Positions 89-16,384 of a stretch of 16,384 bases of DNA are shown here, piece after piece; the first letter of the stretch is position 1, and every line of letters starts with the position of its first letter. The position numbers were made by a program, and so were the translations under genes. The notes beneath the pieces were generated by a model. That model saw only the letters and a program-made list of their open reading frames with translations, ran no database searches and was not told the DNA's origin. The stretch comes from Eubacterium sp. (lineage in GTDB: Bacteria; Bacillota; Clostridia; Peptostreptococcales; Anaerovoracaceae), in NCBI GenBank assembly GCA_017419895.1, contig JAFOKI010000193.1, positions 1 through 16,384 on the forward strand, in the 5' to 3' direction.

Positions 89-1084
89 TCATATCCTGGT
101 GAGAATGAACGCGACCGCGCAGCACGCGCACGCTATTCCCCAGAACATCGTTACTACTTTTGTTTCTTTCATGCCGCCGAGCTCGAAATGATGATGTATC
201 GGTGACATTCTGAACACTCTCTTTCCCGTTGTCTGAAAAGATATTACCTGGATTATCACGGATGCGGATTCCATAACATATACAAATCCCGCTATCGGGA
301 TCAGCAGTTCTGTCTTTGTCAGAATCACAGCTGCTGTAAGCCCCGCTCCGAGAGCCATGGAACCGGTATCGCCCATGAATATCTTTGCTGGATAATGATT
401 GAATAACAGAAAACCGAGGCACGCGCCGCATATCGCGAAGCAGAACACCGCACTCGCTTTTCCGTCGGTACCCGGAGCAAAAAGCCCCTGCATCGTAGAT
501 ATGATCACACCGAAGAACATGGCGACTATCGCAGTCACACCTCCGCAAAGCCCGTCGAGCCCGTCCGTAAGATTAACGCTGTTCGCCATGGCCACCATGA
601 CAAAGACTATAAACGGGATGTACAGCGCCCCAAAATCGACATCGCCGATGACAGGTATCCATACCATGCTCCCATGCGCAGTAAACCTCATCACATAAAC
701 CGCAAGCAGTACCGCAAAAAGCACCTGAAGCGCGAGTTTCTGCCACGCTCTGAGGCCGAGATTGTGTTTTTTAGCCACCTTTATGAAGTCGTCCAGAAAA
801 CCGATCAGTCCGAACAGAAGTCCAGCGACAACTATGATGACCATGTCGGCCATATTCGCGCCTGTAACGATCCCGCATACGATCGCAGCCGCCATGATGC
901 CGGCATAAATCGCGACTCCACCCATGGTCGGGGTTCCCTGTTTGGACATATGGGACTCCGGCCCTTCCTCACGGATGAACTGCCCAAACTGTTTTTTTCT
1001 GAGATACGGGATCTCGATTTTCGTGAAAAGTGCCGTCAGCACGAATGCCAAAACGATGGTTAAAAGTCCTGATGTAAAATGCAT
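89..1084 (-). CDS. mraY: Phospho-N-acetylmuramoyl-pentapeptide-transferase MraY
   Basis: MraY transfers phospho-MurNAc-pentapeptide from UDP to undecaprenyl phosphate, making lipid I at the inner face of the membrane. The 331-residue product has the family's length and about ten hydrophobic segments. Signature motifs are in order: LDDFIKV (97-103) with the aspartate pair, NLTDGLDGL (171-179), FMGDTGS (236-242) and the PIHHHFE loop (295-301) that contacts substrate. The N-terminal TPTMGG (51-56) is also typical. The ATG is one base beyond the murF stop (TGACATG), with CGGAGAG as ribosome site inside the end of murF, so translation is probably coupled to murF. No key residue is missing. Confidence 0.97.
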   Translation of the reverse strand: MHFTSGLLTIVLAFVLTALFTKIEIPYLRKKQFGQFIREEGPESHMSKQGTPTMGGVAIYAGIMAAAIVCGIVTGANMADMVIIVVAGLLFGLIGFLDDFIKVAKKHNLGLRAWQKLALQVLFAVLLAVYVMRFTAHGSMVWIPVIGDVDFGALYIPFIVFVMVAMANSVNLTDGLDGLCGGVTAIVAMFFGVIISTMQGLFAPGTDGKASAVFCFAICGACLGFLLFNHYPAKIFMGDTGSMALGAGLTAAVILTKTELLIPIAGFVYVMESASVIIQVISFQTTGKRVFRMSPIHHHFELGGMKETKVVTMFWGIACACCAVAFILTRI

Positions 1085-1085
1085 G

Positions 1086-2477
1086 TCACTCTCCGAATAC
1101 TATTACCTTAGCGTTTCCTATACCTGTCGAATTGGATCCCTTGAGAAGCACCACGTCACCTTCCGCGAACACAACGTCTGCCGCGTTCTTCATTTCATCG
1201 AGAGATCCATAAGTGAATATACCAAGCGGCTTAACTCTTCCGGCCGCCGCTGCTTCTGCTTCCGCTCCGGAGGCTATCGCTCTCGCCTTTTCACCGACTG
1301 TCATGAGAATATCTATGTCCGTATGCGCCGCGGCTGCTCCAACATTTTTGTGGAGCGTCTCGGAATCGCTCCCGAGTTCGTTCATGTCAGCGAGGATAGC
1401 GATTTTCCTTTTGCCGTTCGAATTGGCGAGCGTCTTAACGGCCGATATCATCGAATCCGGAGCCGCGTTGTATGAATCGTCGATCACCGTGATTCCGCCG
1501 CGCTCCTCTGTTCTGAGGCGGCTCCCTGTTATGTCAAGATTCCTAAGACCGTTCTGAGCCTGATCGATGTCTATCCCAAACTCACTTGCCGCCGCGATCG
1601 CGAGGGCTGCATTGACGGCATTGTGTTCACCGGCGACCGGAAGCTCGATTTTCCTGCTCGTTCCATCATGCGTCAGAATGAATTCCGTCCCTGTGAGTCC
1701 GTGTTCTTTCACCCCGCTCACTTGCCAGTCGAAGTCATCTTCGTATCCGACAGTCACGATCCTGAAATCGCCTTCTATACCGTCCTTCGACAGCATGTCA
1801 TTCGACGCGTTGATCACGAGCACATTAGAGCTGTCCATGAAATCGGTGATTTCGAGTTTGGCCGCGCGGATGCCTTCTCTTCCGTTTTCGAAGAATTCTA
1901 TATGCGACACACCGATATTGGTGATCACAGCTACTTCGGGTCTGACTATGTTTGTAACGCGGTGTATTTCACCCGCGTGATCCATGCCTTCTTCAAAAAC
2001 TCCTGCCTGCACTCCTTCTTCAAATGAGAACACCGTAATCGGTACTCCAACCTGATTATTGAAATTCTTGATAGGTTTTCCGGTCACATATTTCTCGGAC
2101 ATGATGTAGTACAGCATATCCCTTGTTGTCGTCTTTCCGACGCTTCCTGTGACCGCGACTCTCCTTATATCCAGCTTTTCAAGGCAATGCTTGGCAAGCG
2201 CCTGCATAGCATCGAGCGTATCTTCAACGAGGATCACGTTAGCGCCTTCAGGCGCTTTGTCCGGTTCGGACACCATGAAATCCCTGCAGCCGTTTTCGAA
2301 AGCCTGAGGTATGAACCGGTGCGCGTCGTGATTCTCGCCTATGAGAGGTATGAACAAAGCACCGCCTCCGGCTTCTCTCGAATCCGTACAGACACTTGTG
2401 ACAATGCCTCCGGGTCCACCCGATATAAAACGCCCGTTAACCGCTTCTGCTATTTCACTGATCGCTATAGGTACCAT
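1086..2477 (-). CDS. murF: UDP-N-acetylmuramoyl-tripeptide--D-alanyl-D-alanine ligase MurF
   Basis: MurF joins D-Ala-D-Ala to UDP-MurNAc-tripeptide using ATP, the last cytoplasmic step before MraY. The 463-residue protein shows the three-domain Mur ligase layout. The N-terminal domain contains TDSRE (31-35) and GENHDAHRF (47-55). The central ATPase has the P-loop TGSVGKTTT (110-118), NFNNQVGVP (138-146) and NIGVSHIEFF (187-196). The C-terminal domain carries DDSYNAAPDSM (333-343). The first P-loop Ser/Asn position is Val here, but the GKTT lysine and hydroxyls are kept. The start ATG has AAGGAG upstream, overlapping the end of the PBP gene (its TAG is three bases before this ATG). The PBP gene precedes it directly, with no murE between them. 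Confidence 0.96.
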   Translation of the reverse strand: MVPIAISEIAEAVNGRFISGGPGGIVTSVCTDSREAGGGALFIPLIGENHDAHRFIPQAFENGCRDFMVSEPDKAPEGANVILVEDTLDAMQALAKHCLEKLDIRRVAVTGSVGKTTTRDMLYYIMSEKYVTGKPIKNFNNQVGVPITVFSFEEGVQAGVFEEGMDHAGEIHRVTNIVRPEVAVITNIGVSHIEFFENGREGIRAAKLEITDFMDSSNVLVINASNDMLSKDGIEGDFRIVTVGYEDDFDWQVSGVKEHGLTGTEFILTHDGTSRKIELPVAGEHNAVNAALAIAAASEFGIDIDQAQNGLRNLDITGSRLRTEERGGITVIDDSYNAAPDSMISAVKTLANSNGKRKIAILADMNELGSDSETLHKNVGAAAAHTDIDILMTVGEKARAIASGAEAEAAAAGRVKPLGIFTYGSLDEMKNAADVVFAEGDVVLLKGSNSTGIGNAKVIVFGE

Positions 2478-2480
2478 GTC

Positions 2481-4463
2481 CTACTCCTTATAGATGTATA
2501 TCGTCGTATTTCTTTCAACCACAGTTCCCGGCTTTGGATACTGGTCTACTACCTCAAAATTCTCTGCGGTTGTTCCGGCCGGTACCACTTCACAGCTGAG
2601 GCCGATACCGTTCAGGCTGGATCTCGCCGCTGATGATTTCATTCCTACCACATCAGGAACCTGTACCATACCGGCGCTGTTCGCCGTTTCCTGCTCGTTC
2701 GTGTATTTCGGATCAATCTCGAGATACGGAAGCGCGTTCTCCAAAAACTCTTTTGCGATAGGCGCGGCGACCATGCTTCCCGTATTTGATCCTTTTGGTT
2801 TTTCCACTATGGCGAGCACCGTTATCCTGGGATCATCCATCGGAGCCATGCCGAGGAACGAAGAATATGTACTGCTCGTGTATTTCCCGTTCTCCGCAAT
2901 GTTGGCTGTACCGGTCTTTCCTCCGATCCTGTATCCATCTATCTTCGCGTTTCCGCCTCCGCCTTCCGCTACGACGTATTCCATTATGTCGCACATCTCG
3001 GAAGCGGTTTTTTCGGATATCACCTGACGGACTTCTTCCGTCTCGATTTCTTTTACTATGTTTCCGTCCTGGTCAGTGATCTTTTTCACTACCCTGGGCT
3101 TCATGATAATGCCTTTGTTGCCGATCGCGTTCACCGCCGTCAGAAGCTGGATCGGAGTCACCGCGATTCCCTGCCCGTAAGACATAGTAGCAAGATCTAC
3201 ATTGGTCAGATCGCTTATCGGTCTTATGAGCGCTTTTTCTTCGCCCGGAAGCTCGATGTGCGTTTTGTCACTGAAACCGAACATGTCTATGTAGTTATAG
3301 AATTTCTCGGCTCCGAGTCTCATGACGAGTTCCACCTGCACGGGGTTGCACGAGTTTCCGACTGCTTCGACGAGGTTTTCTTTGCCATGGCCAACATGCC
3401 AGCAGTGCAGTATCACGCCGTCAACATTGATCCAGCCCACGTCGTTGAACTTGTCTTTCGGAGTGGTCACGCCTTCCTCGAGAGAGGCTGATGTCGTTAT
3501 CAGTTTGAACGTAGAACCCGGCTCGTACAGATTGCTGATCAGCGGATTCTTCCACATCTCGCTGAGGTACGCAGTCTGTTCTTTCCCGTCCATCTTGTCG
3601 AATTTCTTTTTGTCTTTTTCGTTGATTGGTTCCGTCGCGTTGTTGGAGTCATAAGAACCGGTGCATGCCATCGCCAGAACGTCTCCCGTGGTGGGATCCA
3701 TGGCGAGGAACATTACCCTTGAGGCTTTCGTTTTCTTGAGCCCCGTTTCAATAGCCTGCTCGGCGTAATGCTGGAGTACTTCGTCCAGCGTAAGAGTAAT
3801 ATTGTAACCGTCTGTCGCATTGTAGTATCTTTTGCTGCCGTAAGCCAGAGTGTTGCCGTTTACGTCTGTATCCTGCACCCAGCGCCCCGGGATGCCGCTC
3901 AGGTAATTATTGTATGTCGATTCAATGCCTGTACGGCCTTCGTTGTCATCATTCACGCTTCCGAGAAGCTGCGACAGCGATGTGCCGAACGGATAGTATC
4001 GCTTTGTACCTTTCGCTATCGAGACGCCGTTTATCTCCATGTCCTTGATCTTTTCACATGTATCATTCTCCTGGTATTTGGCGATCTGGATGAGCGTCTG
4101 ACTCGAACCGAAATCTGCCTTGAGTTCTTCTGAACTCATATCCAGGAGTGAAGCGAGTTTCTGGGCTATCTCGTTCTGTTTTTCGTCATTGGGATACGCA
4201 TCCCTCAAATCGCCCGGTCTCAGCCAGATCGAATAGCAGGTCGCGCTCGTAGCGAGCTCATTACCGTTCCTGTCGTAGATATTTCCGCGTTTCGCTTCCA
4301 GTGGGATATCACTTGTTTGCTGTTCTATTGCCATCTGCCTGTATTCGTCCGCGCGGACCACCTGTATCCATGCCGTGCGCACAGAAAGAACAGCCAGAAG
4401 GACCGAGATTATGGCGAATGCAATCAGTATTCTTTTCTTGTTATTGGTCGGAACTCCGTTCAT
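2481..4463 (-). CDS. Class B penicillin-binding protein with one C-terminal PASTA domain (FtsI/SpoVD family transpeptidase)
   Basis: This is a monofunctional D,D-transpeptidase that cross-links septal or spore-related peptidoglycan outside the membrane. With the ATG at 4463 it has 660 residues: a short cytoplasmic tail, one membrane anchor (about 11-33), a PBP dimerisation domain (RGNIYDRNG near 59-67), and the transpeptidase with STFK (317-320, active-site Ser), SCN (371-373) and KTG (516-518). A single PASTA domain follows (about 600-660, starting VQVPDVVGM). A TTG start four codons upstream is open, but it lies within the GAGG ribosome site that serves the ATG, so I prefer the ATG. Position after ftsL suits the division PBP. 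One PASTA domain and Clostridial context equally suit a SpoVD label, so no symbol is given. Confidence 0.93.
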   Translation of the reverse strand: MNGVPTNNKKRILIAFAIISVLLAVLSVRTAWIQVVRADEYRQMAIEQQTSDIPLEAKRGNIYDRNGNELATSATCYSIWLRPGDLRDAYPNDEKQNEIAQKLASLLDMSSEELKADFGSSQTLIQIAKYQENDTCEKIKDMEINGVSIAKGTKRYYPFGTSLSQLLGSVNDDNEGRTGIESTYNNYLSGIPGRWVQDTDVNGNTLAYGSKRYYNATDGYNITLTLDEVLQHYAEQAIETGLKKTKASRVMFLAMDPTTGDVLAMACTGSYDSNNATEPINEKDKKKFDKMDGKEQTAYLSEMWKNPLISNLYEPGSTFKLITTSASLEEGVTTPKDKFNDVGWINVDGVILHCWHVGHGKENLVEAVGNSCNPVQVELVMRLGAEKFYNYIDMFGFSDKTHIELPGEEKALIRPISDLTNVDLATMSYGQGIAVTPIQLLTAVNAIGNKGIIMKPRVVKKITDQDGNIVKEIETEEVRQVISEKTASEMCDIMEYVVAEGGGGNAKIDGYRIGGKTGTANIAENGKYTSSTYSSFLGMAPMDDPRITVLAIVEKPKGSNTGSMVAAPIAKEFLENALPYLEIDPKYTNEQETANSAGMVQVPDVVGMKSSAARSSLNGIGLSCEVVPAGTTAENFEVVDQYPKPGTVVERNTTIYIYKE

Positions 4464-4487
4464 GATTTGCCTCAATTAACGAAAACA

Positions 4488-4509
4488 GCCGGACATGTAT
4501 CCGCCCGGC
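4488..4509 (-). other. Small GC-rich hairpin in the ftsL-PBP gap
   Basis: The 73-base gap between ftsL and the PBP start is the longest inside this cluster. It holds GCCGG (4488-4492) facing CCGGC (4505-4509), or alternatively CGGA (4490-4493) facing TCCG (4500-4503). On the transcribed strand the hairpin is followed by TGTTTTCG. The stem is only 4-5 bp and the T run is broken, so it is at most a weak attenuator or RNA-processing site. Confidence 0.25.
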
Positions 4510-4536
4510 ATTTTTCTGAATATACTTTTATAAGCT

Positions 4537-4869
4537 TCAGCTCCCCGCATAAGCCTCTCTCCTGAGCACCGCCGCGAAGTTCTGTTCCGGCGCGTCATTT
4601 TCGGTTATGTAAACACACTCGTCAGGTGTCGGATAGACCATGCCGAGATCTCTTTTCGCCACCGATTCCAGGTGGTCTATGTTGTTTGCCGATTTTATCT
4701 TGACGCTGAGTGTGTCGACTTCGCCCTGGAGCGCTTCATTCTGTTTTATCAGTATATTGTTCTCATGTCTGAGTTCGGCGGCGAGCGCTGTCATTACGAC
4801 CGTCGCTATCAGAATGAACCCGATAAGCATTATTCCGACTAACACTTTCTTTCTTTCGGCGGCTCTCAT
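4537..4869 (-). CDS. ftsL: Cell division protein FtsL-like (septum initiator, DivIC/FtsL type)
   Basis: This is a small bitopic division protein that pairs with DivIC and helps recruit the septal synthase. The 110 residues comprise a basic cytoplasmic tip (MRAAERKK), one membrane helix (about 9-31), then an extracytoplasmic coiled coil (about 32-66, rich in E, N, Q, L and K). Next comes the conserved-type tail AKRDLGMVYPTPDECVYI (71-88). Sequence conservation in this family is low, so the call leans on size, topology, the LGM-P-x-YI tail and position between rsmH and the PBP gene. The ATG has GGGAGTG/GAGAG upstream and starts 19 bases past the rsmH stop. The last 20 or so residues look unstructured. 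Confidence 0.85.
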   Translation of the reverse strand: MRAAERKKVLVGIMLIGFILIATVVMTALAAELRHENNILIKQNEALQGEVDTLSVKIKSANNIDHLESVAKRDLGMVYPTPDECVYITENDAPEQNFAAVLRREAYAGS

Positions 4870-4888
4870 TTTCTCTCACTCCCGTTTG

Positions 4889-5824
4889 TTATATCTTTTC
4901 AAGTACCCTGAGCTTTGCGCTTCTTGCTCTCGGGTTCTCCTCGAGCTCGCGGCCTCCGGGCACTATGGGTTTCTTTGTTATGCGTCTTGCGTCCGGCACA
5001 TTTCCGCATACGCACACCGGGAATCCCGGTGGACAAGTACATGGGTTTTCGTGCTTAGCGAACGCTTTTTTAACTATCCTGTCTTCCAGCGAGTGGAATG
5101 TTATAATCGCTAGCCTTCCGCCCGGCGCGAGGACTTTTATAAACGACTCGACTGCTCTCTCGAGACCTCCGAGTTCATCGTTGACCTCTATCCTGATCGC
5201 CTGGAATGTTCTCTTGGCCGGGTGCGGTCCTTCGCGTCTTGCCGAAGCCGGTACGGCAGCTTTTATTATGTCCACGAGTTCGAATGTTGTTCCGATCTCT
5301 TTCTTTCGTCTGTTTTCGGCTATGAACGACGCGATTCTTGAAGCCCAACGCTCTTCGCCGTATTCTTTTATGATCCTTGTCAGCTCGTCCCTGCTGTAGG
5401 TGTTCACCACGTCCGCCGCGGTGAGTCCGTCCGCGCTGTCCATCCTCATATCGAGCGGCGCGTCATGCATGTACGAGAATCCTCTCTCAGGATTATCCAG
5501 CTGGAATGACGAAACTCCCAAATCGAGAAGCGCTCCGTCAAGAGCCGGTATATCGTGCTTTCTCAGCACCTGCTCTATATCCGCGTAATTGCTCTTCTCA
5601 AGAATCACCCGCGCCTTTACGCCCTCCAGCCTCGGAGCGGCTGCGTCCAGCGCGTCCTGATCTCTGTCTATTCCCAGGAACAGGCCTTCATCCGACAAAG
5701 CTTCACATACCGCTCTCGCGTGTCCGGCTCCACCGAGCGTGCCGTCCGCGTATATGCCGTCCGGCTTGATCGCAAGCGCTTCCACACATTCATCCAGCAG
5801 TACAGGTCTATGTGAGAATTCCAT
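4889..5824 (-). CDS. rsmH: 16S rRNA (cytosine-1402-N4)-methyltransferase RsmH (MraW)
   Basis: RsmH methylates N4 of C1402 in the 16S rRNA decoding centre using S-adenosylmethionine. From the ATG at 5824 it has 311 residues. Visible signatures are the family opening [12 protein letters not shown], the SAM-binding [10 protein letters not shown] (27-36), LLDLGVSS (99-106), NPERGFSY (111-118), DMRMD (125-129) and [10 protein letters not shown] (243-252). A Cys-rich [13 protein letters not shown] stretch (262-274) is common in Gram-positive homologues. A GTG three codons upstream is open but has no ribosome site, whereas the ATG follows AGGTGG at good spacing and gives the canonical N-terminus. 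It starts 12 bases after the mraZ stop and is part of the same transcript. Confidence 0.96.
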
Positions 5825-5836
5825 ATCCGCCACCTG

Positions 5837-6277
5837 CTAGAAGTCGTAGCCTTCAGTGATCCCGGCGTATTTCTCGTGACTGAAGCTGAATTCTTCGACG
5901 TCAGCATCGCTGTCCCATGTTGCCTTGCTCCAGACCTCGATTTTATTCGTCGCGCCTACGGTCACTACATCCTTTTTGATATTGAGATCTCTGATAAACC
6001 CCTGAGGCAGCACCACTCTTCCCTGCTTATCGACTTCTGTATTGACAGCGTTTTTGGAGATGGTCCTCAGGATAGCCCTGGATTCCTTTTTGCTTTCACG
6101 GAGGGAACTCATGATGTGCATCATTCTTTCATTCCAAGCCTGCTCGGGATAGATCTCTATGCATGGATCAACACCCTTGGCCAGAATGCACTTCTGCCCG
6201 AGTTCGTCGCGCATTTTCGACGGGATTATCAGTCTGTTCCTGTCGTCTATTGAGTTGTTATACTCGCCTACGAACAT
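5837..6277 (-). CDS. mraZ: Transcriptional regulator MraZ
   Basis: MraZ is the DNA-binding protein at the head of most dcw clusters and regulates its own operon through direct repeats near the promoter. The 146 residues contain two SpoVT/AbrB-type swapped-hairpin domains. Each has the D-x-x-x-R signature: D11...R15 in the first (DDRNRLIIP, with Asn where Gly is common) and D83...R87 in the second (DKQGRVVLP). The ATG is preceded by AAGGAGG at a rather long spacing of about 11 bases. It is the first gene of the operon, with promoter and candidate operator immediately upstream. The C-terminal 20 residues are acidic and aromatic, as is common in the family. Confidence 0.95.
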   Translation of the reverse strand: MFVGEYNNSIDDRNRLIIPSKMRDELGQKCILAKGVDPCIEIYPEQAWNERMMHIMSSLRESKKESRAILRTISKNAVNTEVDKQGRVVLPQGFIRDLNIKKDVVTVGATNKIEVWSKATWDSDADVEEFSFSHEKYAGITEGYDF

Positions 6278-8874: not shown

Positions 8875-8900
8875 ATAATCAGCATTTTTATTGTTTGAGT

Positions 8901-8929
8901 TTGACAATTTTCTGTTTATGGTGCATACT
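8901..8929 (+). promoter_or_regulatory. Predicted sigma-A promoter of ilvBN
   Basis: A perfect TTGACA (8901-8906) and CATACT (8924-8929, 4 of 6) are separated by 17 bases, with TG one base before the -10. Transcription should begin at about 8936-8937, right at the leader ATG. This also shows that the open frame running in from 8895 ahead of ilvB is not translated. Confidence 0.75.
8906..8920 (+). promoter_or_regulatory. CodY-box-like sequence within the ilvB promoter
   Basis: The 15 bases match the CodY consensus AATTTTCWGAAAATT at 11 positions; the first nine match perfectly and the second half is poor. It overlaps the -35 end and spacer, where CodY would repress. CodY control of ilvB is established in Bacillus, but four mismatches in A/T-rich DNA is marginal. 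Confidence 0.3.
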
Positions 8930-8937
8930 ATTGAACA

Positions 8938-9006
8938 ATGGCACTTTTCATAAGTTTAGCCGTGAACATCATAAAACAAGATCAGGCATACAGGAGGATA
9001 ATATAA
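8938..9006 (+). CDS. Putative ilvB leader peptide, 22 codons, rich in Ile/Leu/Val
   Basis: An ATG about one base from the predicted transcription start opens a 22-residue frame, MALFISLAVNIIKQDQAYRRII. Eight of 22 residues are branched-chain (Leu x2, Val x1, Ile x5, four of them ATA). Its TAA shares one base with the ilvB ATG (TAATG), and the ilvB AGGAGG site lies inside it as the two AGG Arg codons. Translation would therefore begin leaderless and pass through the ilvB ribosome site. This would suit control by branched-chain amino acid supply, through stalling and coupling, but no terminator or strong antiterminator hairpin is visible. It may be a chance frame. Confidence 0.35.
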   Translation: MALFISLAVNIIKQDQAYRRII

Positions 9007-10628
9007 TGATCACCGGCGCAGACGCAATGGTACGCTGTCTGGAAGAAGAAGGCATCACAAAGATTTTCGGGTATCCGGGCGTAGCCATCGCACCATTTTA
9101 CGATGGACTTTACAGATCTTCGATCGAACACATACTGGTAAGACAGGAGCAGGCAGCTGGTCACGCAGCGAGCGGATATGCCAGAGTCTCAAGAAAACCT
9201 GCAGTATGCTGCACTTCTTCGGGACCCGGCGCAGCCAACCTTATAACCGCGCTGGCTACCGCATATGCGGACAGTATCCCAATCATCGCTATTACAGGCC
9301 AGGTATCCAGTGAACTTCTCGGTAAAGACGTTTTTCAGGAAGCAGACATCAGAGGAGCCACTGAATCATTTGTTAAGTACAGTTATCTTGTCAAAGATCC
9401 GGATGATATACCCAGGATATTCCGCGAAGCTTTCCATATAGCTTCAACCGGCAGAAAAGGACCGGTTTTGATCGATGTTCCTATTGACATCCAGAACGCG
9501 GAGCTCACAAAGGAATTCGCTTATCCTAAAACCATCAAGATCCGCGGTTATAAACCGGATCCCGCTCTCAACAAGCCGCAGCTCAAACGCGTCGTAGAGG
9601 CACTGAACGAGGCTGAAAGGCCTCTGATGTGCGTGGGCGGAGGCGCTATCCTCGCTGACAGCGAAAAACAAGTTAGAGCATTCTGCGAAAAGTTCAACAT
9701 TCCCCTCGTCTCCACAATGATGGGGATCGGAGTTATGCCCAAAAAGCATCCTTTGTATTTCGGAATGCTGGGAAATAACGGTAAACCTTATGCCAACAGA
9801 GCCGTCAATCACAGTGACCTTCTGATCGTAGCAGGAGCCCGGCTCGCCGACAGAGCCGTCGCAAACCCGCGCACGCTTGAAAAAAGAGTCCCCGTTATAC
9901 ATATAGACATAGACACCGCCGAGATCGGAAAGAATCTCGGTCCCATGATCCCGTTGGTCGGCAATATCAAGAAGGTGCTTGATCAGCTCATGAAAGAAAA
10001 CATCAAAAGAACATCGGACGACTGGCTGAACAAGCTGCAGGAAATCAAAACCTCAACAGTAGACAGACGCATTTTCAGCGACGAACTCGTGAACCCGAAT
10101 TTCCTCGTACAGACGCTCAGCGAGAAGATGGATGATGATGCCATCTATGTCGCGGACGTCGGACAGAACCAGCTCTGGTCCGCAGACAATTATGTCATGA
10201 AAAACGGCCGTTTTCTCACCACAGGCGGGATGGGTACTATGGGTTATTCCATACCGGCTGCTATCGGAGCAAAAATGGCAATGCCTAAAAAGCAAGTCGT
10301 CGCAGTATGCGGAGACGGTTCATTCCAGATGTCAATGAACGAGATAGCGACAGCAAAAGTCAACGATATCCCGATCAAGATAGTTATCATGAAAAACCGG
10401 GTACTGGGACTTGTGCGTGAATATCAATACAACACCTATGAGAAGCGCTACTCCGGAATAGACCTTTATTCCTATCCTCACCACGAAAAAATCGCGGAGG
10501 CATACGACATGGATTACTTCCATTGCGACTCGAACGATGAATTAGGCGATGTTATAGACCGCTTCCTTTCATCCGACAAAGCCTCCCTGCTCGTCTGCGA
10601 TATCGAAACAGAAAACAAGGTCAAATGA
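9006..10628 (+). CDS. ilvB: Acetolactate (acetohydroxyacid) synthase large subunit
   Basis: This ThDP- and FAD-dependent enzyme condenses two pyruvates to 2-acetolactate, or pyruvate with 2-oxobutyrate, as the first common step to Val, Leu and Ile. The 540 residues are in order: an N-terminal PYR domain with catalytic Glu48 in RQEQAAGHAASGYAR, SSGPGAANL (71-79) and FQEADIRG (110-117); a central FAD domain (about 190-330, VIHIDIDTAEIGKN); and a C-terminal PP domain with GMGTMGYSIPAAIGAK (408-423), the metal-binding GDGSFQMS (436-443) and N464. The start at 9006 follows AGGAGG; an upstream in-frame extension crosses the promoter. Where most synthases have the 2-oxobutyrate-selecting Trp (RQWQ), this one has Tyr473 (REYQ). 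ilvN follows 16 bases on. Confidence 0.92.
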   Translation: MITGADAMVRCLEEEGITKIFGYPGVAIAPFYDGLYRSSIEHILVRQEQAAGHAASGYARVSRKPAVCCTSSGPGAANLITALATAYADSIPIIAITGQVSSELLGKDVFQEADIRGATESFVKYSYLVKDPDDIPRIFREAFHIASTGRKGPVLIDVPIDIQNAELTKEFAYPKTIKIRGYKPDPALNKPQLKRVVEALNEAERPLMCVGGGAILADSEKQVRAFCEKFNIPLVSTMMGIGVMPKKHPLYFGMLGNNGKPYANRAVNHSDLLIVAGARLADRAVANPRTLEKRVPVIHIDIDTAEIGKNLGPMIPLVGNIKKVLDQLMKENIKRTSDDWLNKLQEIKTSTVDRRIFSDELVNPNFLVQTLSEKMDDDAIYVADVGQNQLWSADNYVMKNGRFLTTGGMGTMGYSIPAAIGAKMAMPKKQVVAVCGDGSFQMSMNEIATAKVNDIPIKIVIMKNRVLGLVREYQYNTYEKRYSGIDLYSYPHHEKIAEAYDMDYFHCDSNDELGDVIDRFLSSDKASLLVCDIETENKVK

Positions 10629-10644
10629 GAAAGGAGACAACGCT

Positions 10645-11115
10645 ATGAAAGGCATTTTTTCAGTACTTGTTGAAAACAAAGACGGCGTTCTGTCTCAGAT
10701 CTCGGGACTGTTCGCCAGAAGAGGCTACAATATAGACAGCCTTGCAGTCGGAGAAACGGAACATCATGACATATCAAGCATGACTATCGTATCTACCGGG
10801 GAAGACTGGAAGATCGATCAGATAGAGAAACATCTGAACAAGAAACTTGATGTCATTAAGGTCCGCCGTCTCGACGAACTCGATTCGGTAGCATTGGAAA
10901 TGATGCTGATCAAGGTTTCGTACAATCAGCAGAACCGCGCCGCGCTTCTCGAAACCTGCCTTGCAACCGGCGCACAAATAATGGTCATGACGCCGAAATA
11001 CATGCTGATCGAGATACATAACGCACCGGATATGATAGAAAACTTCATCGGCCTGGTTAAGGCTTACGGTATACTTGAAATACAAAGGACCGGAACGATC
11101 GCGCTGAGCAAATAA
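10645..11115 (+). CDS. ilvN: Acetolactate synthase small (regulatory) subunit
   Basis: IlvN binds the large subunit, raises its activity and carries the site for feedback inhibition by valine. The 156 residues open with an ACT domain (about 3-75): FSVLVENKDGVLSQISGLF, then RRGYNIDSLAVG (25-36). This is the classic IlvN/IlvH start, with the Gly-Val-Leu loop and Asn of the valine site retained. A second regulatory domain covers about 80-155. Length is typical of the single-ACT form. An AAGGAG site (10631-10636) lies 8 bases before the ATG. It is the last gene of the two-gene unit and is followed at once by a strong terminator. Confidence 0.95.
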   Translation: MKGIFSVLVENKDGVLSQISGLFARRGYNIDSLAVGETEHHDISSMTIVSTGEDWKIDQIEKHLNKKLDVIKVRRLDELDSVALEMMLIKVSYNQQNRAALLETCLATGAQIMVMTPKYMLIEIHNAPDMIENFIGLVKAYGILEIQRTGTIALSK

Positions 11116-11122
11116 CGAACAC

Positions 11123-11152
11123 AAAACGGGGACCGTGACCGGTCCCCGTTTT
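11123..11152. terminator. Bidirectional Rho-independent terminator between ilvN and the convergent oxidoreductase operon
   Basis: A 13-bp stem pairs 11123-11135 (AAAACGGGGACCG) with 11140-11152 around the loop TGAC. A T run follows on the plus strand and TTTT ends the stem on the minus strand. It lies 8 bases past ilvN and 37 bases past the gamma-subunit stop, so it can serve both. Confidence 0.9.
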
Positions 11153-11189
11153 TATTGCTTTGTTTCAAACTATGCCAAATGTTTTCAGC

Positions 11190-11738
11190 CTATTTGGCCT
11201 GCTTTTTGATCTCTTCCATTCCTCTATGGAGAGCCTCTATGTTGAGAGGAACGAGCTGCGGTTTCTTGACACCGAACATAGCTTTGATCATCTCAACAAC
11301 TGTTTCAGCATGAACGATACCCGTTGCCTGTACGTATGCGCCCATCATTACCATGTTCGCGACTTTCAGGTTACCGAGCTCACTCGCGATATCGACACAA
11401 GGTACATAGTAAGCGTTGACATCTGTCCTCGTTACTTTGTCCTCAACTACCGAGCTGTTGACGAAGATGTTTCCGCCCTTTACAACTCTCGGCTCGAATT
11501 TGAGGAGAGAAGGCTTGTTCATCGCGATCAGGTCTGTCGGATAATTGAATACCGGGGAACCGATCGGCTCATCGGAAATGACCACGCTGCAGTTCGCCGT
11601 GCCGCCTCTCATTTCAGGACCGTACGACGGAGCCCATGTGACTTCAAGCCCTTCATTCATTCCTGCTTCTATCAGGGATTTTCCCACTGCGAGAACGCCC
11701 TGGCCTCCGAATCCGGAGATACAAATTTCACTCTTCAT
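11190..11738 (-). CDS. 2-oxoacid:ferredoxin oxidoreductase, gamma subunit
   Basis: This is the gamma subunit of the four-subunit enzyme that oxidatively decarboxylates a 2-oxoacid to acyl-CoA and reduces ferredoxin, or runs in reverse. The 182 residues match the family's size, with the glycine-rich GFGGQGV (9-15) near the N-terminus. YGPEMRGGTANCSVVIS (39-55) follows, which in this family lies near the CoA-binding region. No Fe-S motif is present, as expected. An AAAGGAG site precedes the ATG, 16 bases after the beta stop. It is the last gene of the operon. It is paired here with separate alpha, beta and delta genes, as in VOR and KOR enzymes, unlike the fused pyruvate enzyme. Confidence 0.9.
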   Translation of the reverse strand: MKSEICISGFGGQGVLAVGKSLIEAGMNEGLEVTWAPSYGPEMRGGTANCSVVISDEPIGSPVFNYPTDLIAMNKPSLLKFEPRVVKGGNIFVNSSVVEDKVTRTDVNAYYVPCVDIASELGNLKVANMVMMGAYVQATGIVHAETVVEMIKAMFGVKKPQLVPLNIEALHRGMEEIKKQAK

Positions 11739-11754
11739 TATGGCGCTCCTTTCT

Positions 11755-12498
11755 TTACTCAGCGGTTTTATCTTTCACGACACCAAGCGGATAGTACGGA
11801 ATCATGTTTTCCGTAAGCCACTTGTTCGCATCGATCGGCGAAAGTCCCCAGTTGGTCGGACATGTCGAGAGTACTTCTATGAAAGTGAATCCCGCACCCT
11901 GCATCTGGAGTTCAAATGCCTTTTTAATAGCCTTTTTGGCCTTGTTGAGATTCGGAATATCCTTAACGCAGACTCTCTCCGCGTATGCAACACCGTCGAG
12001 CGTCGACAGGAGTTCAGCGACTCTAATCGGTTTTCCGGCCTGCTCTACAGTTCTTCCGAACGGGCTTGTCGTTGTCTTCTGTCCGATGAGCGATGTAGGA
12101 GCCATCTGACCGCCCGTCATTCCGTAAATAGCGTTGTTTACGAAAATCGTCGTGAATTTTTCGCCTCTCATTGCGGCGTGTACGATCTCGGCAGCTCCGA
12201 TGGAAGCGAGGTCGCCGTCACCCTGATACGTGAATACCGGCTGGTCCGGATGTGTCCTCTTGATCGATGTCGCTACTGCGGGAGCGCGTCCGTGAGCGGC
12301 ATTGAACATGTCGCAGGCAAAATACTTGTCCGCGAATACCGCGCAGCCTACCGGGCATACGCCGATCGCCGTTTCGATCATATCAAGTTCTTCAAGAACT
12401 TCAGCCACGAGTTTGTGGATTATACCGTGGTGGCATCCCGGGCAGTAATGAAGTTCAACATCCGTAAGTCCTTTTGATTTCTGATATACGACTGCCAT
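11755..12498 (-). CDS. 2-oxoacid:ferredoxin oxidoreductase, beta (ThDP-binding) subunit
   Basis: The beta subunit holds thiamine diphosphate and the proximal part of the active site. In its 247 residues are HYCPGCHHG (17-25, the Cys-x-x-Cys-His-His segment), GVCPVGCAVF (46-55), the ThDP/Mg motif GDGDLASIG (93-101) closing with NNAIYGMTGGQ (121-131), and a C-terminal EVLSTCPTNWG segment. These are normal for VOR/KOR beta subunits. The ATG is one base past the alpha stop (TAATATG), with GAGGAGGG ahead, indicating tight translational coupling of alpha and beta, which assemble together. Substrate (2-oxoisovalerate, 2-oxoglutarate or another) is not settled by this subunit. Confidence 0.92.
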   Translation of the reverse strand: MAVVYQKSKGLTDVELHYCPGCHHGIIHKLVAEVLEELDMIETAIGVCPVGCAVFADKYFACDMFNAAHGRAPAVATSIKRTHPDQPVFTYQGDGDLASIGAAEIVHAAMRGEKFTTIFVNNAIYGMTGGQMAPTSLIGQKTTTSPFGRTVEQAGKPIRVAELLSTLDGVAYAERVCVKDIPNLNKAKKAIKKAFELQMQGAGFTFIEVLSTCPTNWGLSPIDANKWLTENMIPYYPLGVVKDKTAE

Positions 12499-12499
12499 A

Positions 12500-13573
12500 T
12501 TACTTACCCTCCTCTATAAGTTCCATAACCTTTTCGGAAATCTCCTCTACCGTCGGGATCATACCGCCGGTACGTCCGAAGAATGCTACGGGTTTAGCTC
12601 CCGCGACAGACATCTTGACGTCGTCGAGCATCTGGCCTCTGCTCATCTCGACACAAAGGATATGCTTTACATTGTCCTTCATCGCGAGTTCGTGGAGAGC
12701 TTCCTCCGGATACGGCCACAGGACCTGAGGTCTGAACAGACCGACTTTTACTCCCTGAGCCCTGAGCTGTCTTACAACAGAGAGGGAGATACGGGCAGGT
12801 GTTCCGTAAGCTACAATGACGACTTCCGCGTCATCACAGTTTACTTCCTCGTATCTGACTTCGTTTGCTTTCATGAGCTGGGCCTTCTTCTCAAGATATT
12901 CATTGAATACCTCGTCGTCTTCCGGCTCAGCAAAGATCGTCTTGATCACGTGATGCTTTTCCGCGCCGTGACGTCCGCAGGCAGCCCATTCTTCTTTCGA
13001 TGGAAGCTCGCGCTTGGGAACCTCTCTCCATTCGATGGGCTCCATCATCTGACCGATAAGTCCGTCTACGAGAACGAAGCACGGATTTCTGTACTGGTCA
13101 GCAATATCGAATGCTTCCTGGATAAAATCTACTGCTTCCTGCATGTTTGCCGGAGCAAGTACAACACACGGGTGGTCTCCGCTCGCGCCGCCCTTTACCA
13201 TCTGATAATAGTCCGCCTGTCCGGGCTGGATAGTTCCAAGTCCCGGGCCGCCTCTCATGCAGTTCATGAGAACGCACGGTACTTCAGCGCCTACCAGATA
13301 AGAGATACCTTCCTGCATGAGCGAAACGCCAAGAGAAGAAGATGATGACATTACTCTCTTGCCTGTCCCGCCTGCACCATAAAGCATATTGATGGTTGCG
13401 ACCTCAGATTCCGTCTGAAGGAAAACACGGCCGACTTCCGGCATACGCTTTGACATATATTCAGGAATCTCACTCTGCGGTGTGATAGGGTATCCGAAAT
13501 ACGCGTCGCAGCCGGCTTTGATGGCAGCTTCGGCCATCGCTTCATTACCTTTCCAAAGCTCTTTCTTTGCCAT
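12500..13573 (-). CDS. vorB: 2-oxoacid:ferredoxin oxidoreductase, alpha subunit (VorB-type, branched-chain 2-oxoacid)
   Basis: The alpha subunit carries the pyrimidine-side ThDP domain and a C-terminal transketolase-like domain. The 357 residues include GYPITPQSEIPEYM (27-40), with the conserved TPQSE, TESEVATINMLYGA (54-67) and SSSSSLGVSLMQEG (76-89). Then come MRGGPGLGTIQPGQADYYQ and a GLIGQMMEP segment. These match proteins usually named 3-methyl-2-oxobutanoate:ferredoxin oxidoreductase (VorB). Proximity to ilvBN is consistent with branched-chain 2-oxoacids, but KOR-like activity or a broad range cannot be excluded. The ATG has AAAGGGGA upstream and starts 13 bases past the ferredoxin stop. 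Naming of VOR subunits differs between sources; here vorB means alpha. Confidence 0.85.
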   Translation of the reverse strand: MAKKELWKGNEAMAEAAIKAGCDAYFGYPITPQSEIPEYMSKRMPEVGRVFLQTESEVATINMLYGAGGTGKRVMSSSSSLGVSLMQEGISYLVGAEVPCVLMNCMRGGPGLGTIQPGQADYYQMVKGGASGDHPCVVLAPANMQEAVDFIQEAFDIADQYRNPCFVLVDGLIGQMMEPIEWREVPKRELPSKEEWAACGRHGAEKHHVIKTIFAEPEDDEVFNEYLEKKAQLMKANEVRYEEVNCDDAEVVIVAYGTPARISLSVVRQLRAQGVKVGLFRPQVLWPYPEEALHELAMKDNVKHILCVEMSRGQMLDDVKMSVAGAKPVAFFGRTGGMIPTVEEISEKVMELIEEGK

Positions 13574-15678: not shown

Positions 15679-16384
15679 TTAGAATTTTTCCGGTCTTTCG
15701 GCAGGACTTGTCAAAGCCGTCCGTTTATTCATGATGAATTCTTTCTTTGTTTCGAATGATTTACGCTCCAGACTGTCGTCGAACGCGATATCGATTCCGT
15801 CGCCGCGGGCTGCCGCTGCGGCAGCGATTACCTGACGTGTAAGCCATGGCGACAGTATCAGCATCGGTCCGAGCGTGTTTGTAAAGATAGAATTATTCTT
15901 CATTACGCCTTCAGTCCGGTCTTTTCCATTGTTCCCATAACCATAGACCAGTTTACCGAACGGCACCTCATCACCGACAAATACGTCAGTCATCTGGATC
16001 TGGGATCCAATGATTTCCATGTCTTCGCCATTGTATGATGCGCTGAAATAAAGATCGTCACCGTATGCAAAAGCGCGTTCTTTTGTCGTGACATCTATAA
16101 GGCCCGTACCTTCTAGTACTGTACCGTCCATCATAGTTATTTCTTTTCCGAAAACAGCAGCCGTAGCTCCGGTTACAATGAGAGGCCTGCCCGAATCCAC
16201 AAATTCCGCAATGGCGGCTTTGTGTGATGAGAAGAAACTGATCACTTCCCTGAACGAAGCCGCAGAACCCGGCGAAACCAGTATGACGTCATACGAAAGC
16301 GCATCGAACGCGTCATCAAGCTCGATATCATCTGTTAAAACCGTATATCCCGCGAGCCCGGCAAATCTCTCGAGAGCCATTAAA
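15679..16384 (-). CDS. GatD-like glutamine amidotransferase domain protein lacking catalytic Cys and His (partial at right edge)
   Basis: GatD is the glutaminase partner of MurT in amidating the glutamate of lipid II. This protein follows the GatD/CobQ-type class I GATase pattern. MALERFAGLAGYTV corresponds to the segment after NLYGDxGN. DGTVLEGTGLIDV (85-97) and GKLVYGYGNNGKDRTEGV (142-159) align closely with GatD. At the nucleophile elbow (family ICGGYQ) it reads VTGATAAVFG (69-78), so Cys becomes Thr70. At the catalytic His (family TYLHGP) it reads TNTLGP (167-172), so His becomes Leu170. The early GGG-x-D/E loop is also changed (SPGSAAS). The ATG at 16380 is internal to the homology and the frame stays open to the edge, so the true start is probably outside. 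The frame is intact, which suggests a maintained pseudoenzyme. Confidence 0.72.
   Translation of the reverse strand, partial: LMALERFAGLAGYTVLTDDIELDDAFDALSYDVILVSPGSAASFREVISFFSSHKAAIAEFVDSGRPLIVTGATAAVFGKEITMMDGTVLEGTGLIDVTTKERAFAYGDDLYFSASYNGEDMEIIGSQIQMTDVFVGDEVPFGKLVYGYGNNGKDRTEGVMKNNSIFTNTLGPMLILSPWLTRQVIAAAAAARGDGIDIAFDDSLERKSFETKKEFIMNKRTALTSPAERPEKF

Follow-up and report, generated by a model that had tools for sequence, protein, structure and literature searches.

The closest described system is the MurT/GatD lipid II isoglutaminyl synthase of S. aureus, S. pneumoniae and S. pyogenes, by which the alpha-carboxyl of D-Glu is reported to be amidated (PMC6301993). For the S. aureus enzyme, the GatD variants C94G and C94S are described as dead with glutamine (PMC3266927, PMC6113224), and amidation of lipid II with ammonia at pH 8.5 is described for MurT together with GatD C94G, with no use of ammonia by the C94G enzyme reported at pH 7.5 and no amidation reported for MurT alone even when ammonia was given (PMC3266927). 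The same report mentions, with the data not shown there, that S. aureus MurT stands in for MurE in vitro by adding lysine (Munch et al., PMC3266927). MurT would thus accept an amino acid and need GatD bodily, not as a glutaminase, if another nucleophile is given, and from this it is proposed that the pair described below, MurT*/GatD*, may be a bridge ligase.

MurE couples Lys, Orn or DAP to the gamma-carboxyl of D-Glu, whereas MurT* is proposed to act on the other carboxyl; in both cases a diamino acid would be linked to a D-Glu carboxyl at the expense of ATP. MurT* scores as MurT in NCBIfam, and its MurE match is weak (39 bits, cut-off 257). Peptidoglycan bridges are also built by FemAB-type transferases, the known ones of which place amino acids from aminoacyl-tRNA onto the side-chain amine of residue 3; bridge building is what they have in common with the present proposal, and they are unrelated to GatD and MurT. 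In group-B walls, which were classed about fifty years ago, the bridge begins at the D-Glu alpha-carboxyl. The peptide Gly-D-Glu is described as characteristic of the B type (PMC4156110). No enzyme for the bond between the D-Glu alpha-carboxyl and the bridge amino acid was found in the open-licence literature (titles, abstracts and terms, with few subscription journals).

The GatD-like gene of the window

The window, that is, the whole stretch of DNA that was analysed (16,384 bases), is an entire contig, and so there is no sequence to its right. A GatD-like ORF (GatD*) is located on the reverse strand at 15679..16383 and consists of 234 codons and a stop codon (15679-15681); its frame is open up to the contig end at 16383, where about 14 N-terminal residues are lost. 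The protein P0001 (248 aa, 97% identical to GatD*) starts about 14 residues further upstream and is free of any frameshift, in accordance with the open frame described in the first-pass annotation and against a frameshift in the unseen N-terminus. The class I glutamine amidotransferase fold as in GatD, which had also been claimed there, is present in GatD*, with structure-database matches to 9sq9 (E 6.4e-15), 5n9m (E 8.9e-10) and 6gs2 (E 9.4e-10). The NCBIfam GatD scores of the truncated protein were 55.8 and 44.3 bits, by which the cut-offs of 400 or 450 are not reached.

The columns of the catalytic Cys and His were set by using the structure-database match alignment and MAFFT alignments, with residues numbered from the ATG. 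The GatD nucleophile Cys is absent, and Gly71 (residue 72 of 234; 16168..16170, reverse strand) stands at the aligned site; the catalytic His is absent as well, and Leu170 (residue 171 of 234; 15871..15873, reverse strand) takes its place. The earlier assignment of Leu170 was thereby confirmed, whereas Thr70, which had been placed opposite the Cys, is one residue out of register. According to the alignment, the canonical Y-x-H-G-P/S segment is replaced by FTNTLGP (15865..15885, reverse strand), and SQIQM (15991..16005, reverse strand) is found where canonical GatDs have FENH. By analogy with the S. aureus mutants, glutamine-dependent amidation of D-Glu by GatD* would not be expected.

Elsewhere in the window, as read from translations alone, a division and cell-wall cluster (mraZ, rsmH, an ftsL-like gene, a penicillin-binding protein gene, murF and mraY) occupies 89-6277 of the reverse strand, and 8895-13573 holds acetolactate synthase subunits followed by three 2-oxoacid ferredoxin oxidoreductase subunits on the other strand.

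Conservation and hosts of clade A

A protein search with GatD* gave 47 homologues, and none of the 44 long ones has a Cys at the nucleophile column or up to 3 columns to either side, which speaks against a relocated nucleophile near this site. Protein homologues and genome loci together made up 95 distinct members of what is here called clade A. Cys and His are both gone in 95/95: the nucleophile column holds Gly in 89, Ser in 5 and Ala in 1, and the His column holds Leu in 89, Val in 5 and Met in 1. The motifs TN.LGP and LHG.RG were nearly or fully invariant in 20 aligned members. In a tree of 118 GatD-like sequences, built by a quick method with every third clade A sequence taken, clade A forms one clade (SH-aLRT 100). 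The dN/dS of gatD* could be computed for 49 of 61 pairs and lay at 0.05-0.23, which indicates purifying selection; dS was saturated in many pairs, and the pairs are not independent.

Judged from sequence, these data support GatD* as a maintained inactive amidotransferase that forms a branch of the MurT/GatD family, much as the first-pass annotation had supposed, and no earlier description of the branch was found in the literature searched. A decaying gene is ruled out by the many genomes with orthologues, a lack of which would have spoken for decay, and by the dN/dS values. Even when mis-assembly is included, such an origin is scarcely credible: the missing catalytic residues, the position at a contig end and the incomplete genome would fit it, against which stand the intact state of the orthologues, the purifying selection and the conserved motifs.

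From a scan of named genomes, 110 loci were obtained and 80 were kept. The hosts of clade A include Aminicella, Hornefia, Emergencia, E. pyruvativorans, E. minutum, E. callanderi, E. barkeri, E. aggregans, many Acetobacterium, Anaerofustis, Mogibacterium, uncultured Clostridia and Bacilli, and one record titled Collinsella. Among 292 genomes of the window's class, any match was present in 153 and clade A in 10 (at least 257 bits, with the next match at 152). In the window's genus group (17 genomes), clade A was present in 11 and a second dead GatD type in the other 6, and no intact GatD was seen among the 17. The Collinsella record (sp. AK_207A, locus L134) carries a clade A locus with an adjoining ornithine racemase, which may reflect transfer or a mis-assigned contig; Collinsella has a group A wall. 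At 130849-131574 of contig C1 in genome G162, the reading frame of a GatD match is interrupted by five stops (2 TGA, 3 TAA), which may mean a decaying copy or another genetic code.

The MurT-like partner

A MurT-like gene (MurT*) lies at most 30 bp upstream of gatD*, or overlaps it, in 76 of the 78 paired copies of the named loci; for 7 further gatD* copies in these loci no MurT was found by pattern search. Of the 87 MurT* partners of clade A, 86 keep the ATP loop GTNGK(S/T) and all 87 keep the leading CxxC of the ribbon; GAN is kept in 83 or more. In contrast to the MurT/GatD synthase of S. aureus, S. pneumoniae and S. pyogenes, clade A is without Cys and His, scores far under the family cut-off, has the DNAAD/ADGRD loop of MurT replaced, and mostly has Asn for the triad Asp. 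The column of this Asp (D349) holds Asn in 77, Val in 5, Asp in 4 and a gap in 1 of the 87, and Asn was also placed opposite D349 in the PDB alignment of one MurT*, with residues counted by hand. The S. aureus D349N variant is reported to be severely impaired (PMC6113224). A MurE-like DNP motif in the QENPET loop of MurT* was considered and dropped; the MurE motif aligns to the DNAAD loop (Munch et al., PMC3266927).

Contig C91 of the window's genome encodes the N-terminal 189 residues of MurT* (63% identical to the MurT* of Eubacterium pyruvativorans). The gene runs off the contig end there, and an assembly break within the operon is therefore most likely; the adjacency of murT* and gatD* in this genome is inferred from the relatives, in which the Asp/Asn site was likewise read, the window's own MurT* ending before it. 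In 50 named clade A genomes, which cover 50 of the 80 kept loci, a single MurT_C match was present in 41 and no match above 66 bits in 48; one genome (G379) gave an intact-like score of 116. MurT* thus seems to take the place of the intact MurT/GatD pair in clade A genomes.

GatD* might instead serve in regulation or as a scaffold, its pocket sensing a ligand, with the chemistry of MurT* unchanged and a separate glutaminase in charge. Dead enzymes often become regulatory, and the fold and the new motifs are conserved; the triad Asp of MurT* is changed too, a second gatD was not found in the window's genome (assembly 84% complete), and nothing specific points to such a role, which makes it improbable.

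Proposed reaction

On balance, MurT*/GatD* is somewhat likely to be a ligase that joins a bridge amino acid to the D-Glu alpha-carboxyl, which is the group-B bond. GatD* would be the non-hydrolysing partner of the MurT-type ligase MurT*, by which the alpha-carboxyl of D-Glu-2 in the peptidoglycan precursor would be phosphorylated with ATP, as is thought for MurT and the Mur ligases. An amino acid, and not glutamine-derived ammonia, would attack the acyl phosphate with its amino group, so that the glutaminase site would be of no use and would be dismantled. GatD* would be kept because MurT needs its partner, as the inactivity of S. aureus MurT without GatD even with ammonia implies, and the old pocket perhaps helps to hold the donor. 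The donor would most likely be D-ornithine where an ornithine racemase is linked, and maybe D-Lys, D-Dab or Gly elsewhere; the product would be the bond between the D-Glu alpha-carboxyl and the bridge amino acid by which group-B peptidoglycan is defined. The first-pass annotation had left the role open among scaffold, regulator, use of free ammonia and binding of another ligand, and the evidence points rather to a switch of donor, with an amino acid used instead of ammonia.

If the proposal is true, a two-gene candidate for the group-B bond is provided, a group-B wall might be predictable from a genome, and an amidotransferase would be seen to turn into an amino acid ligase through loss of its glutaminase. 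The known nucleophile is lacking in many proteins that carry the annotation glutamine amidotransferase or lipid II isoglutaminyl synthase.

Racemases and other neighbours of gatD*

Ornithine racemase (Orr) is known from ornithine fermentation. Of the 93 clade A loci with room for it, 17 have an ornithine racemase gene on the same strand directly 3' of gatD*, and one more has it on the opposite strand; none was found directly after gatD in 22 intact loci or in 36 other dead loci. The Fisher p values for this adjacency were 0.04 against the intact loci alone and 0.0003 against the intact and other dead loci together, and they, like the p values given further below, count related loci as independent and serve as guides only. 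Three of these Orr-like proteins gave 434, 339 and 443 bits with NCBIfam Orr, all below the curated cut-off of 480. An arginase-like gene follows in 4 loci, and the one that was tested gave 206 bits (cut-off 228).

Racemase adjacency is a minority trait within clade A. It is absent from the close relatives of the window, and an Orr-like gene of the window's genome is located elsewhere, on contig C164. Genome-wide Orr was rejected as a marker: the family is present in 12/12 clade A relatives and 40/49 others (52/61 in all), so its presence alone says nothing and adjacency alone separates the groups.

Two tandem MurT*-GatD* pairs followed by an ATP-grasp gene weakly like D-Ala-D-Ala ligase were seen at L097, L098, L099, L101 and L106 (two of them titled otherwise than Mogibacterium); the tandem pairs perhaps represent two successive additions. 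Such loci would also suit an amino acid ligase that works on another carboxyl or polymer than the peptidoglycan D-Glu alpha-carboxyl, and Mur-type ligases serve several polymers. Against this, D-Glu is the known acceptor of MurT, and the hosts and the neighbours (FemAB, racemases and, once, MurE) point to the wall, and another acceptor is accordingly regarded as doubtful.

Disarmed GatD in Microbacteriaceae

Under the proposal that MurT*/GatD* makes the group-B bond, unrelated group-B bacteria would be predicted to carry a disarmed GatD as well. In an actinobacterial sample, a GatD match was present in 142/246 genomes; in 50 loci that were read (the 30 best-scoring and 20 from the low-scoring end, and so not a random draw), Cys was kept in 45 and lost in 5. 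Two of the five Cys-less GatDs were 100% identical to a protein of A. intestinalis (Agromyces) and 88% identical to one of Microbacterium, respectively, and Cys was absent from all of the 120 homologues listed for each (of 579 and 237 matches, respectively). Both genera belong to Microbacteriaceae, for which group-B-type peptidoglycan is reported (PMC10978784), with examples in PMC5945732 and PMC10757982. The other three of the five (L288, L289 and L290), from actinobacterial genomes of 1.7, 1.9 and 2.5 Mb, have a GatD of the SGN/TGN dead type.

Within the family, matches were obtained in 75 of 100 genomes and 70 loci were read, with genomes of weak or partial matches left out (G646, G647, G650, G666, G669, G690 and G729). 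Cys was lost in 56 of the 70 loci, and Cys and His were kept in 14; loci are not equal to genomes here, since G691 and G703 each carry an intact and a dead gatD copy. Of the 28 loci in the order sample, 26 were intact and the other two, L338 and L339, were Microbacterium-like (L339, from genome G636, has a GatD with Microbacterium relatives, and L338 was placed by its motif and score only); L308 and L309, which came up in this sample as well, were counted with the family. With L338 and L339 left out, 56/70 dead family loci against 0/26 dead order loci gave p 1e-13.

In the dead Microbacteriaceae loci, His is mostly kept, the MurT Asp is kept in 22/22, and the ADGRD loop is altered in all 21 shown of the 22. 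Ser for Gly in KNPxG was found in 22/22 dead family loci, 1/10 intact family loci and 3/26 order loci. GatD is disarmed differently in Microbacteriaceae than in clade A, and the kept Asp and His count against the ligase proposal.

An alanine-racemase-like gene (TIGR00492 119 bits, cut-off 168) was present in the fetched flank of 9/22 dead loci of the family and of both dead loci in the order sample, and in that of none of 81 intact loci or of L288-L290. Across ten genomes, its strand relative to gatD was the same in five and opposite in five, the latter half counting against the proposal. In the test, 10/23 dead loci against 0/78 intact loci gave p 6e-8 (10/26 dead with L288-L290), where 23 stands for the 22 family loci and L338, L339 being of the same genome as L291 and counted once, and 78 understates the 81 intact loci, some of which share a genome. 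At L291 (Microbacterium-like), an alanine racemase C-terminal domain alone (2916-3617) and a gene with both domains (3620-4651) were seen after gatD*, possibly as a two-part racemase.

For clade A, the link to the wall concerns Acetobacterium and the E. limosum group, both of which have group-B walls and are among its hosts. Eubacterium is listed with B2alpha walls in a review (PMC11382707), and the wall of E. limosum is reported to contain Lys and Orn (PMC4791908); one review table and one composition were found for Acetobacterium and E. limosum wall chemistry in the open-licence literature. A dead GatD may follow group-B walls, the clade A hosts compared being Acetobacterium and the E. limosum group, a minority. 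The 14 intact loci of Microbacteriaceae and the Collinsella-titled clade A record stand against a strict match.

These patterns bear on the main rival, in which D-Glu is still amidated by MurT*/GatD* from free ammonia with GatD* as a structural subunit. High ammonia levels are normal for amino-acid fermenters, the ATP loop is kept in MurT*, and S. aureus MurT with GatD C94G is reported to amidate at pH 8.5 with GatD required; at pH 7.5, however, ammonia is not used by that enzyme according to the same source (PMC3266927). The loss in GatD moreover tracks a group-B family, whose walls bear an amino acid on the carboxyl concerned; racemases are linked to dead gatD loci, and the DNAAD/ADGRD loop is replaced. 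Amidation from ammonia is considered unlikely on these grounds, less so than the other alternatives. For the broader form of the amino acid ligase reading, we see about an even chance: MurT/GatD pairs with a killed glutaminase would be the missing group-B ligases, and the donor switch would have arisen separately in Bacillota and Microbacteriaceae by disarming of GatD, with a racemase recruited alongside (ornithine racemase, sometimes with arginase, in the former and an alanine-racemase relative in the latter).

Other GatD groups without catalytic residues

Outside clade A, 40 GatD-like sequences fail the Cys/His column test, one of them by His alone, and they fall on the tree in groups of 23, 12, 4 and 1. 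Because these 40 are without a linked racemase, the glutaminase may be lost for other reasons too; no racemase was found near the other dead clostridial loci (28 loci fetched with about 5 kb). Clostridial GatD-like genes beside MurT, without Cys and His and of the TGN... and TY.LGP types, were seen at L218, L221, L226-L245, L248, L257 and L013-L025. The single sequence keeps Cys and has Gln for His (L182, 672-1427). The third dead group consists of four loci of one genus and sits next to intact GatDs on the tree, and in all four (L220, 2610-3662; L222; L224; L225) a FemAB gene overlaps the end of gatD.
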